Below, one piece after another: positions 2,423 to 21,224 of a stretch of DNA of 21,784 bases. Source of the DNA: a virus; IMG/VR virus record IMGVR_UViG_3300042288_001301, positions 1-21,784 of that record; one strand, given 5' to 3'. Positions within the stretch are counted from its first letter, which is position 1; each line of letters starts with the position of its first letter. The notes below the pieces were generated by a model. It searched no databases. It was not told the origin of the DNA and was given only the letters and a program-made list of their open reading frames with translations. Position numbers and translations under genes: made by a program.

Positions 2423-2931
2423 CCTTCTTGATAAACACTGACGAAGACCTTCCCTTTCCTGTAGAGAGGAAGCACCTTGTCAATTAGATGGCGGTTATGC
2501 GTGCGAAGACAACCATGAGTGCCTACAAGGGGCTGCATGGGCGCCCAGGCGCCAGGCCATCCCAAGGCAGAGCCACCACCATGAAGGCCAATCCCAGCCC
2601 GTCCAATGCCCGTCTCTTGGTTTTCTAGGTCAATCATGTCATAGAAGGCCCAGCCATAAGCCATTAGGGTGCGGTCAAAAGCAGGATTATTTCCATTGAT
2701 GGAATAATCGTTGTAGAGCTGACCAAGCCTGTAGAGGCCAGGAGGCGTGTCAGACCTTTGCACTTTCCATTCGTAGTCACTGTACTGACCACGCGCAAGA
2801 CACGGCACTTCCCATAGAAGCTTTCCCTCAAAAGAGAAAGCTTTCATTGTCTCCGTTTTGTCGTTTACTACTAAATGAGAATCATTTGCAGTAAAACCAA
2901 AATCCTGCGGGCGCTTCTTGGGGCCAATCAT
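2419..2931 (-). CDS. L,D-transpeptidase (YkuD-fold) family protein, putative peptidoglycan enzyme
   Basis: 170 residues. The C-terminal half has the L,D-transpeptidase signature: a first His in IGLHGGGSA (His117) and the catalytic-Cys block THGCLRTHN (138-146, Cys141), matching the family's [S/T]-H-G-C-x-R motif. The region before it (about 40-80) resembles the usual strand-rich start of the domain (DTPPGLYRLG). Known members form or rearrange peptide crosslinks in murein; a phage copy could remodel the wall or act in lysis. No signal peptide is visible, so export would need a holin or another route. The ATG follows the upstream stop with no gap (TAA then ATG) and its TGA overlaps the next ATG. 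Confidence 0.85.
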   Translation of the reverse strand: MIGPKKRPQDFGFTANDSHLVVNDKTETMKAFSFEGKLLWEVPCLARGQYSDYEWKVQRSDTPPGLYRLGQLYNDYSINGNNPAFDRTLMAYGWAFYDMIDLENQETGIGRAGIGLHGGGSALGWPGAWAPMQPLVGTHGCLRTHNRHLIDKVLPLYRKGKVFVSVYQEG

Positions 2932-3075
2932 TTACGGCTTAGCGCGAAAGATGGTCTTCAGACCTTCCATAAGCAGTTGTAAGATGTTATTGCTTTTCCA
3001 CGGCGAGTGATCAAGAATTTGATCTGCAGCAGCAACAAGAATGCCGCCAATCACAAACCACTGAATGGGTTCCAT
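2932..3075 (-). CDS. 47-residue small membrane protein
   Basis: A short frame begins at the ATG at 3075 and stops at a TAA immediately before the ATG of the L,D-transpeptidase-like gene. The protein starts MEPIQWFVIGGILVAAAD, a short hydrophobic segment of about 13 residues, then a polar stretch with HSPWKSNNILQLL and an amphipathic basic tail ending FRAKP. Small phage proteins of this design are common next to lysis genes, and I recall similar ones from phages, but I cannot assign a family. Perfect packing between neighbours supports it as a real gene. A holin or holin-like role is possible but unproven. Confidence 0.75.
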   Translation of the reverse strand: MEPIQWFVIGGILVAAADQILDHSPWKSNNILQLLMEGLKTIFRAKP

Positions 3076-3399: not shown

Positions 3400-3891
3400 A
3401 TGGGGATGAGAAATGGACCAAATGAACTCCTCCATTCGCTCACTGAATTACGCCCAGGCGACGCCAAAAGACGTTATCGAAAAAGTATCTTTGAAGACTT
3501 TCCCACGAGGGGAGCGTTAGGTCATTGCACTTGCGCTTATTGCGGCGTGTGGAATGAAAAGCTAACCATTGATCACATTGTCCCCAAAAGCAAAGGCGGT
3601 CCGCACTTTGCAAAATGGAACAACATCCCTTCATGTTTGGCATGCAATGCAGACAAAGGAAGCCTGCCATTGTTTGAATGGTGGAGGCCCAAACAGTTCT
3701 GGTCCCAAAAGCGAGAAGAAACACTTCTTGCCTGGATTCACGCTCATAGTTTTGTGAGCGCTCACACTGACATTGGAGATTGGGAGCAATGGATGGAAGA
3801 AACTCAACGGGTGCTGCCCATTCATGAACGTCCCAAAGAAAAAGCGGCCTTTATGTGGCCGCCTTCTTTGCAAGTGAGACTAGCTAGTTAG
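3400..3891 (+). CDS. HNH endonuclease
   Basis: 163 residues from ATG 3400; a TTG at 3388 and an ATG at 3406 are alternatives. It has a complete HNH / His-Me finger core: a first zinc pair in CAYCG (45-49), the catalytic block LTIDHIVPKSKGG (55-67, Asp58-His59), Asn in the central WNNIP, and a second zinc pair CLACN (79-83). Known members nick or cut DNA. In phages they are homing endonucleases, packaging cofactors or stand-alone nucleases; no intron or terminase is beside it, so a free-standing homing type is likely. It is a lone plus-strand gene between two minus-strand blocks. Its 3' coding end contains the terminator of the opposing operon, and its stop overlaps the stop of the DUF3310 gene. 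Confidence 0.9.
   Translation: MGMRNGPNELLHSLTELRPGDAKRRYRKSIFEDFPTRGALGHCTCAYCGVWNEKLTIDHIVPKSKGGPHFAKWNNIPSCLACNADKGSLPLFEWWRPKQFWSQKREETLLAWIHAHSFVSAHTDIGDWEQWMEETQRVLPIHERPKEKAAFMWPPSLQVRLAS
3835..3862 (-). terminator. Minus-strand intrinsic terminator inside the 3' end of the HNH gene
   Basis: Stem GCGGCC (3844-3849) pairs with GGCCGC (3857-3862) around a 7-base loop. Read on the minus strand the hairpin is followed by TTTTTCTTT (complement of 3835-3843). It would end the DUF3310-ThyX transcript about 25 bases past the DUF3310 stop. Confidence 0.7.
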
Positions 3892-13857: not shown

Positions 13858-14316
13858 ATGGACTTTTCTAGCGTTAACGATTTCCTAAAGAAAGCCACCT
13901 CGGCTAAAAACCAAGAGCGCCAGGTGATTGATGATGAGCTCGACCCGTTTCTTTCAGATCCGGCCACTTTTGGTGTGACGCCTGAACTGGCAAGGACCAT
14001 TGATGGCTTGAAGCACAAATATGGCGATGAAGCTTTCCGTCAAATTGGCATCTTCTGCCTAGGAAAATGGCTAGAAGTTCATCAGGAAATATTGAACCAG
14101 CACATTGAAAACGACGCAATGGATGGAGCGTTGTTGACAATGAATGACATCAGCAAGCTGACACTAACCATTCAAACCGTTGATGGCATTGGCAGTTTTG
14201 GTGGTGATGAAGATTGGAAGCGCATGCTGAAAAACAGCGTTGGGCAAGCGTTTCTGGAACACCTTGAAGAAGATGGTCTTGACCCTATGTCCTTTTTTGG
14301 CAGGAGGAAATCATGA
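13858..14316 (+). CDS. Hypothetical helical phage protein
   Basis: 152 residues from ATG 13858 (MDFSSVNDFLKKATSAKNQ), chosen because a pyrimidine-rich CCTCACTTTCCC precedes it as for other genes here; a GTG at 13801 would add 19 low-complexity residues. The protein is mostly helical with LARTIDGLKHKYGDEAFRQI in the middle and an acidic C-terminal helix ending MSFFGRRKS. The family is not recognised. Its stop overlaps the next ATG (ATGA). Confidence 0.75.
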   Translation: MDFSSVNDFLKKATSAKNQERQVIDDELDPFLSDPATFGVTPELARTIDGLKHKYGDEAFRQIGIFCLGKWLEVHQEILNQHIENDAMDGALLTMNDISKLTLTIQTVDGIGSFGGDEDWKRMLKNSVGQAFLEHLEEDGLDPMSFFGRRKS

Positions 14317-17322: not shown

Positions 17323-17736
17323 ATGCAATTAGAGTTAATTCCTGGAATTGGAGAATGCTTTTCGGACTGCATTGCGACAAAAGAATGCAGCACCTGTCGT
17401 CGTCGATTGCCGGAAAATTGCTTTGAAGTAAATTATTTGAACTTAAAAGGACAACCTCGCTACTCATCGCGTTGCAATAGCTGCAAAAAGAACGCTATAG
17501 ATCACCTTAAAAAATTAAAAAAAATACATCCCCCACCGCCGAAGGGAACGCTTTGTGCAGTACCTGGCTGCGTAAGACTAGGCACATGCCTTGATCATGA
17601 TCATAATTCTGGAAGGGCTCGTGGATATATCTGCGGTCCTCATAATTCCGCTTTTGCTTACTGCAATGATTCTGTTGGTGGAGTACAGGCACTTTTGGAA
17701 TACGCGCAGCAATGGGAGGCTAAAGGGTCTGGCTAA
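17323..17736 (+). CDS. Recombination endonuclease VII family protein
   Basis: 137 residues from ATG 17323; a TTG at 17299 would add eight. The C-terminal half has the endonuclease VII core: Cys pair LCAVPGCV (77-84), catalytic CLDHDHNSGRARGYIC (89-104, Asp91-His92 to His94) and CGPHNSAFAY (104-113, Asn108), ending in the typical GGVQALLEYA helix. An extra N-terminal zinc ribbon (CSTC 22-25, CNSC 51-54) precedes it. T4 gp49 and relatives resolve Holliday junctions and trim branched DNA before packaging. It stands alone between a terminator and a new promoter. It is AT-rich compared with its neighbours, which could mark recent acquisition. Confidence 0.9.
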   Translation: MQLELIPGIGECFSDCIATKECSTCRRRLPENCFEVNYLNLKGQPRYSSRCNSCKKNAIDHLKKLKKIHPPPPKGTLCAVPGCVRLGTCLDHDHNSGRARGYICGPHNSAFAYCNDSVGGVQALLEYAQQWEAKGSG

Positions 17737-17780
17737 CTTTGTAATAGTCCTTTACAAACCCCGCAGGATCCGGCCGATCG

Positions 17781-17786
17781 TGTAAT
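17781..17786 (+). promoter_or_regulatory. Possible -10 box (TGTAAT)
   Basis: TGTAAT lies 23 bases before the ATG at 17810, with a pyrimidine-rich leader between. No clear -35 is visible. An inverted repeat TTTGTAA/TTACAAA (17738-17744, 17752-17758) sits just upstream. Confidence 0.35.
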
Positions 17787-17809
17787 GTGCTCTCGTCGCC
17801 TCGCTTCCG

Positions 17810-18007
17810 ATGAACAACCTCCCCTCCATTGTTTCTTTCTTCTCCATCTCCTGTGGCATGAGTATGCTCACTCTGGCCGCCTTAGTGCATACGCCCGAGC
17901 CGCAAGATAGCCCGGCAATGCTTCGCCAATGCCTAAACATTCACCCTGAGCGCTATTGCCGCCTCACTTACGCTCCGTCTACAGTGAAGGCAATGGAAAG
18001 TAAGTGA
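17810..18007 (+). CDS. 65-residue protein with signal peptide or membrane anchor
   Basis: MNNLPSIVSFFSISCGMSML, then TLAALV, forms a hydrophobic N-terminal segment to about residue 26. The remainder is a small polar domain with EPQDSPAMLRQCLNIHPERY and CRLTYAPSTV. The C-x-x-H-P-E-R-Y-C-R block seems conserved in similar small cyanophage proteins as I recall them. It is probably secreted or membrane-anchored with one disulphide. Its stop overlaps the next ATG (TGATG). Function unknown. Confidence 0.65.
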   Translation: MNNLPSIVSFFSISCGMSMLTLAALVHTPEPQDSPAMLRQCLNIHPERYCRLTYAPSTVKAMESK

Positions 18008-18213
18008 TGTTTGAGCCTGGCGCAATTGTTGATCTCAACGACCACATCTTTGGCTGGAGAGGACAATATAAAGTGCTCCCTAAGAAGGCAGAAACCTCCC
18101 TAGTCAAGATTAAGAATCTGGGGACAAACAGTGAGCAGTTTGTCAGTGCTGACAGGCTTCGCAGGAGTCGTTTGTCACAATTCTTCATCAAGGGCCTTGC
18201 GCCTAAACGATAA
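18007..18213 (+). CDS. 68-residue small beta-rich hypothetical protein
   Basis: Starts MFEPGAIVDLNDHIFGWRG at ATG 18007; a GTG at 18004 is an alternative. The pattern PGAIVDLNDHIFGWRGQYKV, followed by SLVKIKNLGTNSEQFVSADR, suggests a small SH3- or KOW-like barrel. A basic end (RRSRLSQFF, then LAPKR) could bind RNA or DNA. It is coupled to the upstream membrane or secreted protein by a one-base overlap. Function unknown. Confidence 0.65.
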   Translation: MFEPGAIVDLNDHIFGWRGQYKVLPKKAETSLVKIKNLGTNSEQFVSADRLRRSRLSQFFIKGLAPKR

Positions 18214-18235
18214 ACAACTCTGATGGTTCAGGGGC

Positions 18236-18264
18236 TTGACCGGGGCTCCGTCCATGGGCATTAT
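18236..18264 (+). promoter_or_regulatory. Promoter of hairpin cassette 1
   Basis: TTGACC (18236-18241), 17 bases, CATTAT (18259-18264). The predicted start of transcription falls at about 18271, the first base of the AAC preceding the hairpin, so the RNA would begin with the hairpin. Confidence 0.55.
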
Positions 18265-18273
18265 GGCTTCAAC

Positions 18274-18287
18274 GAGGCGCGAGCCTC
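18274..18287 (+). repeat. 5' leader hairpin, copy 1 (GAGGC-GCGA-GCCTC)
   Basis: Stem GAGGC/GCCTC with loop GCGA, preceded by AAC. A 16-base pyrimidine spacer with one A (18288-18303) leads to ATG 18304. Only the plus-strand RNA gives a GNRA-type loop. Confidence 0.85.
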
Positions 18288-18303
18288 TCATTCCTTTCTT
18301 TCC

Positions 18304-18609
18304 ATGACCACCTACCTCCTCGGCTACGCAACCAAAACCCCCATCGTGCGCGGTTTCCTTCGCCACGCTGGTAGCAGCATCGTCAGCGTGGAATTCGTCA
18401 AGGCTGACGGCAGCCTCCGCAAGATCCAATTCAATCCTTGCGACCGCCAGGAAATCAAAGGCACTGGCAAGCCCTCTACCAATGCTTCCATTGTTCGCTG
18501 CCGCGACTTTGCAGTGGCCCGCAAGGATGGGCAGGGCGCTTGGCGTTCCTTTGACTGCGAGCGTGTGGTGAGCATCACTGCCAAAGGCGAGACGCTGGTG
18601 CTGGCCTGA
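18304..18609 (+). CDS. Hairpin-cassette gene 1: small SH3-barrel-like protein (DUF2693-like)
   Basis: 101 residues from ATG 18304 (MTTYLLGYATKTPIVRGFL). The longer in-frame start at 18223 would put the promoter and hairpin inside the coding sequence. The pattern VSVEFVKADGSLRKIQFNP (28-46), later WRSFDCERVVSITAKGET (81-98), resembles small phage proteins with an SH3-like barrel (DUF2693-type), in which K-x-DG-x-R and WRSF are typical. Codons are strongly C-ending, unlike the AT-richer genes upstream, which suggests high expression. Function unknown. Confidence 0.75.
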   Translation: MTTYLLGYATKTPIVRGFLRHAGSSIVSVEFVKADGSLRKIQFNPCDRQEIKGTGKPSTNASIVRCRDFAVARKDGQGAWRSFDCERVVSITAKGETLVLA

Positions 18610-18630
18610 TCGTTTGTAAACAATTGTGAC

Positions 18631-18650
18631 AGGGGCCAATCCAGGCCCCT
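18631..18650 (+). terminator. Terminator-like hairpin between cassettes 1 and 2
   Basis: AGGGGCC (18631-18637) pairs with GGCCCCT (18644-18650) around AATCCA. Only a weak T-rich stretch follows (CTGTCCTGTATTGTT), which merges with the next -10 box. Confidence 0.6.
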
Positions 18651-18658
18651 CTGTCCTG

Positions 18659-18664
18659 TATTGT
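18659..18664 (+). promoter_or_regulatory. -10 box of hairpin cassette 2
   Basis: TATTGT ends 8 bases before the hairpin stem, compared with 9 bases in the three other copies. No -35 is obvious; the terminator hairpin occupies that place. Confidence 0.45.
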
Positions 18665-18672
18665 TCTCTCAC

Positions 18673-18686
18673 GAGGCGCGAGCCTC
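18673..18686 (+). repeat. 5' leader hairpin, copy 2 (GAGGC-GCGA-GCCTC)
   Basis: Identical 14 bases, preceded by CAC rather than AAC. An 18-base spacer with no purine at all (18687-18704) leads to ATG 18705. Confidence 0.85.
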
Positions 18687-18704
18687 TCCTTTCCTTTCCT
18701 TCCC

Positions 18705-18965
18705 ATGGCAACCATTCCCACTGTCCACCTCAACGGCACCGGCTTCACCGATCTGCGCGACGGCTACGCTGCTGCGTACGATGCCATTGACAAGGCCATT
18801 GACGCCCTGGCGAAAGCCGAGCTCAATGGGAGGGATTTCTATCCGCAGGGCCCTGATGCCTACTATCACGCTCGCAAGGAGCGCGATCAGGCCTTCTACC
18901 GCCTGCATGCTGTTCACGACTACGTGGGCGAGATGCTGGCTGGCATTTGCGACCAACAGCGCTGA
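18705..18965 (+). CDS. Hairpin-cassette gene 2: hypothetical helical protein
   Basis: 86 residues. MATIPTVHLNGTGFTDLRDG begins a strand-then-helix pattern, followed by an Ala-rich helix (AIDKAIDALAKAELNGRDF) and YPQGPDAYYHARKERDQAFY. I recall unrelated phages coding small proteins with HLNGT near the start, GRD-x-YPQGP in the middle and a final helix, so this is a known but uncharacterised family. Codons are strongly C-ending. Function unknown. Confidence 0.8.
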   Translation: MATIPTVHLNGTGFTDLRDGYAAAYDAIDKAIDALAKAELNGRDFYPQGPDAYYHARKERDQAFYRLHAVHDYVGEMLAGICDQQR

Positions 18966-18991
18966 AGCGCCAAAGCGTGAAGCTTTGTAAC

Positions 18992-19011
18992 GGGGCTTGA
19001 CCTCAGGCCCC
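18992..19011 (+). terminator. Hairpin between cassette gene 2 and the DUF932 gene
   Basis: GGGGCTTG (18992-18999) pairs, with one G-T pair, to CAGGCCCC (19004-19011) around ACCT. It overlaps the -35 box of the next promoter, so terminator and promoter share bases. Confidence 0.5.
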
Positions 19012-19025
19012 AAATGAACTAATTT
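18997..19025 (+). promoter_or_regulatory. Promoter of the DUF932 gene
   Basis: TTGACC (18997-19002), 17 bases, TAATTT (19020-19025). GGGGCTTGACC is shared exactly with the promoter at 18236. A leader of about 25 bases precedes ATG 19058, without the GAGGC hairpin. Confidence 0.55.
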
Positions 19026-19057
19026 TCCTTTCGTCAGCCAACTTTCCTCTCAAAGCC

Positions 19058-20059
19058 ATGAGCCACCAATTCACCTCCGGCGTGTTCTTCAACAATGAGC
19101 CCGCCTGGCACAAGCTTGGCACCGTCCTCGACGGCACCCAGCCCGCCCGTGAAGCTTTCGCCACTGCCAACGCAGACTGGGGCACCATCAGCACTCCCGT
19201 GTTTGATCCTGCTGGTGAGCCCATCCCTGGCTACCAGGCCATCACTCGCGGCGACACTGGCAATGTGCTCTCCATCCAAAGCGAAAGCTATGCCATCGTT
19301 CAAAACGAACAGCTCATCAGGGTGGCAGAAGCCCTGCATGAAGATGCAACGATGGATGCCGTGGTGGTGCTCAACGAAGGGCGCAAGGTTGCATTCACCG
19401 CCAAGGTGAACAATTCCGAAGCTGATGTGCTCCCTGGTGACACCATCCACCAATACCTTGTTGGTTGCACTTCTCACGATGGCACTATTGCCTTCCAGGT
19501 GATGTTCAGCCCCATTCGTGTGGTGTGTCAGAACACGCTTTCCTACGCTCTGGGCCGTGCTGCTGCTGGTGCATCCACCAAGAAGATGCGCATTCGCCAT
19601 ACCAAGAACGCCAACGCTCTCATTGATCACCTCCCCTCGATCATTGATATGCAGCGCCAGCAGTTCACTGCGGGCATTGATGAGCTGAAGGCAATGGCCG
19701 CCAAGCCCTGCACTTCCGCTCTGTTCCGTCAGTATTGCGAAAGCGTGTTTGCTGACCAACTGGTGGGCATGACCAACGACAAGCGGGGCGACAAGAGCAC
19801 TGCCCGCTCCAAGAAGCTGGAAGACCTCACTGCCTGGGACAACGTGGCCAACAAGTTCCATGGGGAAGGCATTGGCTTTGATATTCCTGGCGTGCAGGGC
19901 ACCATGTGGGGCGCCTATCAAGCCATCACGGAGTATTTCTCGCACGATGCAGGCCGTGCCGTGGATTCCATTGATGCTGCCCGCCAGCGGCTGGAAAGCC
20001 TCTACTGGGGCACTGGTGCTGCCACCATCGCCAAGGCCCACTCCCTGGCTCTGGCCTGA
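19058..20059 (+). CDS. DUF932 family phage/plasmid-like protein
   Basis: 333 residues. Family hallmarks: FFNNEPAWHKLGTVLDG (10-26), GYQAITRGDTGNVLSIQSE (58-76), YAIVQNEQLI (78-87), and FQVMFSPIRVVCQNTLSYAL (147-166), as in the DUF932 / phage-plasmid TIGR03299 group. The C-terminal third is helical and more variable (DAARQRLESLYWGTG). The family is widespread in phages and plasmids, but its activity is not established. Its length fits the family and codons are heavily C-ending, which suggests abundant expression. The start follows a CU-rich leader without a Shine-Dalgarno. Confidence 0.92.
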   Translation: MSHQFTSGVFFNNEPAWHKLGTVLDGTQPAREAFATANADWGTISTPVFDPAGEPIPGYQAITRGDTGNVLSIQSESYAIVQNEQLIRVAEALHEDATMDAVVVLNEGRKVAFTAKVNNSEADVLPGDTIHQYLVGCTSHDGTIAFQVMFSPIRVVCQNTLSYALGRAAAGASTKKMRIRHTKNANALIDHLPSIIDMQRQQFTAGIDELKAMAAKPCTSALFRQYCESVFADQLVGMTNDKRGDKSTARSKKLEDLTAWDNVANKFHGEGIGFDIPGVQGTMWGAYQAITEYFSHDAGRAVDSIDAARQRLESLYWGTGAATIAKAHSLALA

Positions 20060-20080
20060 GCGTTGCAATGGAGGGAAATG

Positions 20081-20110
20081 GGGCTGGGGGCTTGCGCTCC
20101 TGGCCCTTTT
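20081..20110 (+). terminator. Terminator after the DUF932 gene
   Basis: GGGCTGGGGG (20081-20090) pairs over 10 positions, with G-T pairs, to CTCCTGGCCC (20097-20106) around CTTGCG, followed by TTTT (20107-20110). Confidence 0.75.
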
Positions 20111-20120
20111 CGCTTACTGT
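20092..20120 (+). promoter_or_regulatory. Promoter of hairpin cassette 3
   Basis: TTGCGC (20092-20097), 17 bases, TACTGT (20115-20120), ending 9 bases before the hairpin stem. The -35 lies in the loop of the upstream terminator. Confidence 0.45.
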
Positions 20121-20129
20121 TCTTTCAAC

Positions 20130-20143
20130 GAGGCGCGAGCCTC
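20130..20143 (+). repeat. 5' leader hairpin, copy 3 (GAGGC-GCGA-GCCTC)
   Basis: Identical 14 bases preceded by AAC. A 15-base spacer, mostly pyrimidine with three purines (20144-20158), leads to ATG 20159. Confidence 0.85.
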
Positions 20144-20158
20144 ACCGCCTTTCACTCC

Positions 20159-20464
20159 ATGGCTGCTTCCTTCTCCACCCTGACCGCCACTGAGCGTTGC
20201 CTTGTCGCGGCTCCCGCCAACGCATGGGAGGTGTGCGCCGCTGTTCACGACTTTGGCGGCATCGTTGACTGTGCAGTGCGTAGCTTCAACGGCAAGAAAG
20301 TGCTCAATGCCGTCAAGCTGGGCAACGACTGCTTCGACGTCACCCTGGTGAATCACAACCATCTCCAAGGCAGGCTTGTTAAGGGCTCCACCATTCGCTT
20401 CACCACCACCGGCACTTGGCTCAAGGAATGGCTGGAAGCAGTGGGTTCCACCGTCACTTTGTGA
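20159..20464 (+). CDS. Hairpin-cassette gene 3: hypothetical beta-rich protein
   Basis: 101 residues from ATG 20159 (MAASFSTLTATERCLVAAP). The in-frame start at 20063 would run through the terminator and hairpin. It has a strand-rich centre (GGIVDCAVRSFNGKKVLNAV, then CFDVTLVNHNHLQGRLVKG) and a Trp-containing end (TGTWLKEWLEAVG). The family is not recognised. Its sequence is unrelated to the other cassette genes, so only the 5' module is shared. Codons are C-ending. Confidence 0.75.
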   Translation: MAASFSTLTATERCLVAAPANAWEVCAAVHDFGGIVDCAVRSFNGKKVLNAVKLGNDCFDVTLVNHNHLQGRLVKGSTIRFTTTGTWLKEWLEAVGSTVTL

Positions 20465-20475
20465 AGAAACAACGG

Positions 20476-20497
20476 AAGGGGCGCTTGGGCGCCCTTT
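20476..20497 (+). terminator. Terminator after cassette gene 3
   Basis: AAGGGGCGC (20476-20484) pairs with GCGCCCTTT (20489-20497), one G-T pair, around TTGG. It lies directly upstream of the next -10 box. Confidence 0.75.
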
Positions 20498-20503
20498 CTG
20501 GCT

Positions 20504-20509
20504 TATTAT
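20504..20509 (+). promoter_or_regulatory. -10 box of hairpin cassette 4
   Basis: TATTAT, 5 of 6 matches to TATAAT, ends 9 bases before the hairpin stem. No -35 at a normal distance; the terminator stem is there instead. Confidence 0.5.
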
Positions 20510-20518
20510 TCCCTCAAC

Positions 20519-20532
20519 GAGGCGCGAGCCTC
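20519..20532 (+). repeat. 5' leader hairpin, copy 4 (GAGGC-GCGA-GCCTC)
   Basis: Identical 14 bases preceded by AAC. A 16-base spacer with no purine (20533-20548) leads to ATG 20549. Confidence 0.85.
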
Positions 20533-20548
20533 TCCCTTCCTTCTTCCC

Positions 20549-20785
20549 ATGACCTCCTCCTTCATCCAAGACCAGCTCATTTCCATGGTTGCTCGCTTCA
20601 TCTGCGAAGCCAAGGCTGGTGACATGCTCATGCTTCCTGCCATGGCAGCCCTCCACAAGCGTGAAGATGGCCGCATCTGCATGAGCCGCCGAGGAAGCCT
20701 GCCCATGCCACTGTGGGAGCCCCTGAGCCACGATATTGTTGCCACCATTGTTAGGTGGAGCAAAGAAGACCTGCAGGCCGCCTGA
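20549..20785 (+). CDS. Hairpin-cassette gene 4: hypothetical helical protein
   Basis: 78 residues: MTSSFIQDQLISMVARFICE, then a Met-rich helix (AGDMLMLPAMAALHKR), a basic turn (DGRICMSRRGSLPMP) and a C-terminal helix with HDIVATIVRWSKEDLQAA. No family recognised. Its TGA lies in the loop of a hairpin (20775-20792). Codons are C-ending as in the other cassette genes. Confidence 0.75.
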   Translation: MTSSFIQDQLISMVARFICEAKAGDMLMLPAMAALHKREDGRICMSRRGSLPMPLWEPLSHDIVATIVRWSKEDLQAA

Positions 20786-21029: not shown

Positions 21030-21224
21030 ATGCCTTACTCTCTCGTTCTTGATGATGAATGGGGCATTCCATTCACTGCTAAAACCTTCGCTTCTATTGA
21101 AGAAGTGCAAGATGAAATTAAGACAATGGACGAAGCATTGGACGATGCAGGACTAAGCGCCGCTCATGACATTCGTTGCATTATTGACCAGCTCAAAGAA
21201 ATTATTGAGGCCGAAAAAGCCTGA
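21030..21224 (+). CDS. 64-residue hypothetical acidic protein
   Basis: ATG 21030 with GAGGA (21019-21023) six bases upstream, a proper Shine-Dalgarno. It begins MPYSLVLDDEWGIPFTAKT, then two helices (SIEEVQDEIKTMDEALDDAG and IDQLKEIIEAEKA). Codons are AT-rich, unlike the cassette genes. No family recognised. Confidence 0.75.
   Translation: MPYSLVLDDEWGIPFTAKTFASIEEVQDEIKTMDEALDDAGLSAAHDIRCIIDQLKEIIEAEKA

Follow-up and report, generated by a model that had tools for sequence, protein, structure and literature searches.

A stretch of viral DNA of 21,784 nucleotides (nt), the IMG/VR record IMGVR_UViG_3300042288_001301 (the window, in what follows), raises the question of why four small genes coding for unrelated proteins should be preceded, at nearly the same distance from their start codons, by one and the same hairpin. 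A preliminary description regarded this repeat as an autonomous expression module with a 5' hairpin that stabilises the messenger RNA (mRNA), recruits a factor or controls translation, and offered as an alternative a DNA-level repeat favouring the exchange of cassettes. The present analysis supports that interpretation, and yields direct evidence for both the RNA leader and the exchange-favouring DNA repeat, which are not alternatives; the role of the hairpin itself (to stabilise, to recruit or to control) is what we infer. The element, hereafter the leader, recurs with one architecture in cyanophages, consisting of an upstream hairpin or terminator, a TATTGT-like -10 box, a putative "CA" start, 2-3 nt, a hairpin capped by a G[C/A]GA tetraloop, a pyrimidine-rich spacer of 14-20 nt and the ATG.

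Four Leaders in the Window

The hairpin GAGGCGCGAGCCTC (GAGGC-GCGA-GCCTC) occurs in four exact copies, all on the + strand, at positions 18274, 18673, 20130 and 20519, each of them 15-18 nt before the ATG of a gene as first described, and no further exact copy exists elsewhere in the window. With up to three mismatches allowed, 11 matches are found in the window against 2.4 expected, a number that none of 100 shuffles reaches; the fourfold occurrence is real and far from chance. The -10-like boxes CATTAT, TATTGT, TACTGT and TATTAT do end 8-9 nt 5' of the stem, the spacers are pyrimidine-rich and devoid of a Shine-Dalgarno sequence, and the canonical start position, 2-3 nt 5' of the hairpin, agrees with the earlier suggestion that the transcript would begin at or just before it. 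Two other statements hold in part. The good Shine-Dalgarno sequences attributed to other genes are clear at 14313, 15246 and 15870 but weak at 21030. The terminator-like hairpin said to precede three of the four leaders is clear for leaders 3 and 4, whereas leader 2 has a weak one, a GC-rich stem at 18631-18650 whose T tail is poor and which is missing from the terminator scan, and leader 1 has none, the promoter-like site TTGACC-17-CATTAT standing in its place.

The four coded proteins (101, 86, 101 and 78 amino acids, aa) are indeed assigned to different families, and the preference of their genes for C-ending codons is borne out, with C3 values of 0.46-0.52 compared with 0.19-0.33 for the remaining listed genes of the window. 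The bias is shared by the DUF932 gene at 19058 (C3 0.45), which lacks the hairpin.

A Leader Family in Cyanophages

Pattern scans revealed well over 100 different leaders, spread over dozens of IMG/VR contigs, these counts referring to distinct sequences and not to independent events, as many contigs are closely related. The small proteins encoded behind them fall into some 30 or more unrelated families. A first pattern scan returned 88 stretches, many of them chance matches lacking the box or the context, which were left uncounted. Two of the scans had GCGA or GNGA in their pattern, and the fair one with respect to the loop is the loop-blind scan fixing only GGCCCCTTT-N4-7-TATTGTT, in which a GNRA hairpin with 4 or 5 of its 5 pairs stands at the expected place in 28 of the 54 distinct tails, against 0.4 in shuffles. 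Among the fetched loci, 138 distinct GNRA leaders compare with 0-2 for each other tetraloop class tried, and a search without the box gave 178 GNRA hairpins located 12-23 nt 5' of the start of an open reading frame (ORF), against 3-10 for six other loop classes. A GC hairpin occurs upstream in 109/138 leaders. Contigs of up to 107 kb contain 1-5 matches to a covariance model of the leader, usually clustered within a few kb on one strand; the copies precede ORF starts, in one island per genome, and are not scattered through coding sequence; copies equally frequent there had been named beforehand as a refutation. The model has no match in four chance-match records nor in phage S-H1, in which a homolog of gene 2 is present and the leader was not found. 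Throughout the family, C3 is higher in leader genes (0.43) than in other genes (0.29; P 2e-11), in line with strong expression.

The closest annotated phage is Synechococcus phage S-CBS4, a siphovirus (PMC6157547), whose last 3 kb contain four leaders, the hairpins being located at about 66.7, 67.1, 67.6 and 68.7 kb; their boxes are TAGGAT, TATATT, TATAGT and TATAGT, and their loops GAGA or GCGA. They are missed when a TATTGT-like box is demanded and recovered with TANNNT, and a covariance model built from the IMG/VR leaders alone recovers two of them (E ~1e-4). The change from TATTGT to TATAGT supports the reading of the box as a -10 element. As an observation apart, the leader ATG of S-CBS4 gp101 (L095, 27577-28008) lies ~78 nt 5' of the annotated start, which is probably wrong because the longer 128-aa form is conserved in relatives.

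Database searches returned nothing comparable. The 48-nt leader, a query too short and variable for BLAST, gave no match among annotated phages; the exact arrangement TATTGT..GAGGCGCGAGCCTC..ATG is absent from 84,980 bacterial and archaeal genomes; the covariance model reached at best E 0.38 in 11 picocyanobacterial genomes, a search limited to 150 scored candidates per genome that leaves room for copies in the hosts; the Rfam covariance scan of the leaders gave no match even at E up to 1; and no description of this leader was found in the literature searched.

A second subclass with 7-bp stems (GAGGCGA/TCGCCTC, GAGACGG/CCGTCTC) occurs in L007, L026, L041, L072, L078, L131 and L145, where it precedes two other protein families (9 and 12), one apparently a membrane or signal-peptide protein. 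On the - strand of L090 (~3526-3751) and L162 (~2825-3050), downstream of the leader island, ten copies of CCGTARAATATW within ~225 bp form an iteron-like array which is missing from the window.

Conservation of the Stem and the Loop

A lack of stem covariation in relatives had been named beforehand as a refutation, and the stems do covary. With box, start and GNRA loop fixed and pairing not required, the stem is complete, at all five pairs, in 84 of 96 leaders; among the exceptions are several in which the hairpin is present but was read in the wrong register. In the stem-blind set of 31 distinct 14-mers, 93.5% of the cells are paired versus 71.8% in shuffled sequences, two-sided changes occur at all five pairs, and covariation amounts to 0.68 versus 0.30, with slid controls at most 0.22; one further covariation set, pre-selected for pairing, is illustrative only. 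One-sided changes of the stem fall mostly on the 3' arm and create G-U pairs, 31 of 34 being 5'G-3'U. Since such changes keep an RNA helix and break a DNA palindrome, they favour a role at the RNA level. In addition, several families of homologous genes display five to eight different paired stems each. The stem of gene 4 is GAGGC/GCCTC in the window and GGGCCG/CGGTCC in S-CBS4. Covarying stems, together with homologous genes carrying different paired stems, thus indicate that the hairpin acts as RNA.

The loop behaves differently. The 43 distinct stem-loop cores contrast with only three loops, GCGA, GAGA and the rare GCAA, and a loop-blind tally in fixed context gives GCGA 36 times, GAGA 16 times, GCAA twice and three singletons.

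Promoter Geometry and Predicted Folding

The distance from the end of the box to the hairpin is 8-9 nt in 105/138 leaders. When the leaders are aligned on the box, the sixth following base is C in 95/133 and the seventh A in 93/133, and CA occurs at +7/+8 after the box in 107/133, which corresponds to the classical start-site distance. Transcripts beginning there would have a free 5' overhang of 2-3 nt in 103/133 leaders, so that the hairpin would form before any other structure of the message. A classical -35 element common to all copies was considered and rejected, TTGACC at 17 nt being present only in leader 1 and the DUF932 gene. The predicted 5' untranslated regions (UTRs) of the window fold into the hairpin alone (-9.3 to -9.4 kcal/mol), and in folds of the family the spacer and the AUG are mostly unpaired (mean 0.75).

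Exchange of Genes at the Leaders

Between the window and contig L025, the DNA is 96% identical over 17733-20162, through leader 3 up to ATGG. Beyond this point the genes are unrelated, the window having one and L025 two with another leader between them, and 96% identity is found again from 20514 onwards, at the CAAC preceding hairpin 4. Contig L068 shows the same exchange boundaries with the window at 92-95% identity. Moreover, hairpins are identical in 22% of the comparisons within a contig against 6% between contigs, a difference reached in none of 500 permutations. Such exact boundaries and within-contig identity point to recombination at the leaders: the leader DNA is a swap point, and genes are replaced exactly between two leaders in near-identical phages.

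Proposed Mechanism and Rival Explanations

The reading we prefer, to which we give a roughly even chance, is a promoter for the host RNA polymerase combined with a stabilising hairpin at the 5' end of the transcript, carried on a mobile promoter-terminator cassette like the promoter-early stem-loop (PeSL) cassettes reportedly described in T4-like phages by Arbiol et al. in 2010 and Comeau et al. in 2014. The sequences directly show the recurring architecture, the covariation at the RNA level, the exact boundaries of exchange and the codon bias, whereas the activity of the promoter, the start site, the time at which the genes are expressed, stabilisation and the way ribosomes are loaded are deduced from DNA sequence. 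Host RNA polymerase would recognise the TATTGT/TATAGT-like -10 box and start at the conserved CA 7 nt downstream. At its 5' end the transcript would have 2-3 free nt and then a hairpin of 5-7 bp capped by the G[C/A]GA tetraloop; this hairpin may shield it against pyrophosphate removal, 5'-tethered RNase E and 5' exonuclease, resulting in a longer-lived mRNA. The unstructured pyrimidine-rich stretch of 14-20 nt would load ribosomes without a Shine-Dalgarno sequence. Finally, the same 40-60 bp in front of many genes would offer a landing site for homologous recombination, by which the genes between leaders could be exchanged.

According to published work, bacterial mRNA is stabilised by structure at its 5' end, as both RppH and RNase E require this end to be single-stranded; in Bacillus, whose RNase J acts from the 5' end, hairpins at or near it protect the mRNA (PMC3997798). 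Cyanobacterial RNase E has a similar catalysis, and infection of Prochlorococcus by phage P-SSP7 raises the host RNase E (PMC10989914). A 5'-terminal hairpin on small phage genes that appear strongly expressed would fit this background.

Several points weigh against this promoter-and-stabiliser reading. Stability alone would not predict that the loop is GCGA or GAGA in 135/138 leaders, nor that the leader set yielded no UNCG loop and scarcely any GAAA or GUGA. Most of the box-aligned leaders have no conserved -35, and when longer transcripts are folded, a structure other than the hairpin is preferred by 31 of 130 leaders. Homologs of gene 2 (in L078, L101, L119, L035, L144 and others) keep the terminator and the TATTGT box with a short leader TTGTTCGCGC... 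and no hairpin, as the DUF932 gene of the window also lacks one; since some homologous genes keep the box without the hairpin, the latter is not essential everywhere or can be lost. Lastly, the pyrophosphate-removing enzyme of B. subtilis needs at least two free nt (PMC3997798), so that an overhang of 2-3 nt may still permit its action.

The narrow choice of loops is also the main argument for a different explanation, in which an RNA-binding protein of the phage or the host would bind the hairpin, recognise its G[C/A]GA loop and govern how the messages of the whole gene set are translated or how stable they are, as one regulon. We consider it unlikely: the loop varies far less than the stem, and hairpins are alike within a genome as if matched to one factor, but recombination predicts this likeness equally well, shared ancestry of related leaders alone keeps loops alike, and no candidate factor has emerged so far. 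An extension of the idea, in which the hairpin would be an address tag by which a phage-encoded or captured host factor controls all messages of the island, with genes joining and leaving by leader recombination, is likewise given a low probability.

A nut-type antitermination site, in which the hairpin would be boxB-like, TTCTTTCAAC would take the place of boxA, and polymerases starting at each module would read through the terminators between cassettes, is very unlikely. In spite of the 5-bp stem with a GNRA loop, the strong terminator-like hairpins after the genes and the many copies with TTCTTTCAAC upstream, this pyrimidine stretch is not kept in the S-CBS4 leaders (TCTGTCATC, GGTTCCA), whereas the -10 box is, and in most copies the boxA would sit 5' of the probable start. 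A repeat working only as DNA, i.e., a recombination linker or a protein-binding palindrome with an incidental RNA hairpin, would explain the clean gene exchange between leader copies and the concerted evolution within contigs, but is made highly improbable by the compensatory and G-U changes, the orientation-fixed GNRA loop and the fixed distances to box and ATG. The idea that the hairpin and the pyrimidine tract form an early attenuator or pause site near the promoter, for which the terminator scan speaks by listing two of the hairpins as terminator-like, is also very unlikely, in view of a stem of only 5 pairs, a tail that is C-rich instead of U-rich, and a position 2-3 nt from the presumed start, where a stable elongation complex is not yet formed.

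The Leader Island and Its Genes

None of the four leader genes matches a Pfam family, and only gene 1 matches a phage family. The features of the island are listed in Table 1.

Table 1. Leaders, genes and associated signals of the leader island in the window.
Feature	Position	Strand	Basis or remark
Leader 1 promoter-like site TTGACC-17-CATTAT	18236..18264	+	Terminator/promoter scan; hairpin distance as in family
Leader 1 predicted 5' UTR	18271..18303	+	Hairpin 18274-18287, pyrimidine spacer 18288-18303; presumed start
Gene 1, 101 aa, phrog_2267 (unknown function)	18304..18609	+	
GC-rich inverted repeat, weak terminator-like, just 5' of leader 2	18631..18650	+	Sequence
Leader 2 -10-like box TATTGT	18659..18664	+	
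Leader 2 predicted 5' UTR; hairpin 18673-18686	18671..18704	+	Presumed start
Gene 2, 86 aa, no family; homologs in S-CBS4, S-H1	18705..18965	+	
Promoter-like TTGACC-17-TAATTT of DUF932 gene, no GNRA hairpin	18997..19025	+	Sequence
DUF932 gene, 333 aa, within island; pyrimidine-rich leader without hairpin	19058..20059	+	
Terminator-like hairpin 5' of leader 3	20080..20107	+	Terminator scan
Leader 3 -10-like box TACTGT	20115..20120	+	
Leader 3 predicted 5' UTR; hairpin 20130-20143	20127..20158	+	Presumed start; same in L025 up to ATGG
Gene 3, 101 aa; other genes in its place in L025, L068	20159..20464	+	
Terminator-like hairpin 5' of leader 4	20473..20500	+	Terminator scan
Leader 4 -10-like box TATTAT	20504..20509	+	
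Leader 4 predicted 5' UTR; hairpin 20519-20532	20516..20548	+	L025/L068 homology resumes at 20514
Gene 4, 78 aa; S-CBS4 homolog with leader stem GGGCCG/CGGTCC	20549..20785	+	

Upstream of the DUF932 gene (18990-19025), the TTGACC located 17 nt from TAATTT lies within the loop of a GGGGC...GCCCC hairpin, and the homologs in L014, L072 and L088 possess an extra hairpin with a pentaloop, GGGCA-GCGAC-TGCCC, which is missing from the window copy. Outside the island, the protein encoded at 13033-13788 matches a PHROG named 'Rnase E', a name also borne by S-CBS4 gp086; Pfam gives weak helix-turn-helix matches only, and the label looks inherited rather than functional.

Significance of the Leader

The leader represents a defined, portable expression module for a poorly known group of cyanophages, and an explanation of the wiring and swapping of the numerous small genes of unknown function in these phages. 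It adds a covarying RNA element which is missing from Rfam. Owing to the four copies in the cultured S-CBS4, the position of the promoter, the protection of the mRNA and the recognition of the loop become directly testable, and the leader may serve as an expression leader for Synechococcus.

Comparison with Known Systems

As described in citing papers, the PeSLs of T4-like phages are repeated promoter and terminator/stem-loop modules between small non-conserved genes, at which recombination occurs and which are linked to gene shuffling (PMC4503421, PMC3950731). The leaders resemble them at the sequence level as composite intergenic modules, with 1-5 model matches per genome in one island, and in the coincidence of gene-replacement boundaries with the modules (window versus L025 and L068). 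In contrast to a T4-type early promoter in a T4-like myovirus, they have no conserved -35 and their nearest isolate is a siphovirus. Compared with the PeSLs as so described, the leaders occur in S-CBS4-like cyanosiphoviruses, possess another promoter, and add a separate hairpin at the probable 5' end of the mRNA, with a covarying stem and a G[C/A]GA loop. In the cyanomyovirus S-PM2, no dense PeSLs were found (PMC4503421).

The 5'-terminal stabilising stem-loops of E. coli ompA and papA and of B. subtilis aprE (PMC3997798) stand directly at the 5' end or a few nt from it, as the hairpin of the leaders would with respect to the predicted start, and a block of RppH, RNase E or RNase J would be expected. 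As in this type, structure is conserved over sequence. Stem-loops of this type lie within ~4 nt of the 5' end, and the leaders would have an overhang of 2-3 nt in 103/133 cases if transcription began at the predicted start. However, these stem-loops belong to single host genes, whereas one leader design serves ~30 phage gene families, lacks a Shine-Dalgarno sequence and has a restricted tetraloop; stabilisation by the leader would follow by analogy.

Other systems are more distant. The lambda-type nut sites likewise have a short hairpin of 5 bp whose loop is GNRA-like, close to the start of the transcript, but in the leaders a boxA does not appear to be conserved, TTCTTTCAAC being absent from those of S-CBS4 and largely 5' of the probable start in its many copies, and they mostly head single-gene units. 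PhotoRC-II, wcaG and manA (PMC2864571) are also structured RNAs in cyanophage 5' UTRs; they differ in genes and structures and give no Rfam match in the window. The haloviruses HF2 and HGTV-1 (PMC8707807, PMC3950731) contain repeated intergenic promoter modules, with an inverted repeat in HGTV-1, but with archaeal TATA-type promoters and no evidence of a covarying 5' mRNA hairpin. By analogy, the leader would act as a stabiliser of the ompA type joined to a cassette of the PeSL type, and is best filed as a member of neither.

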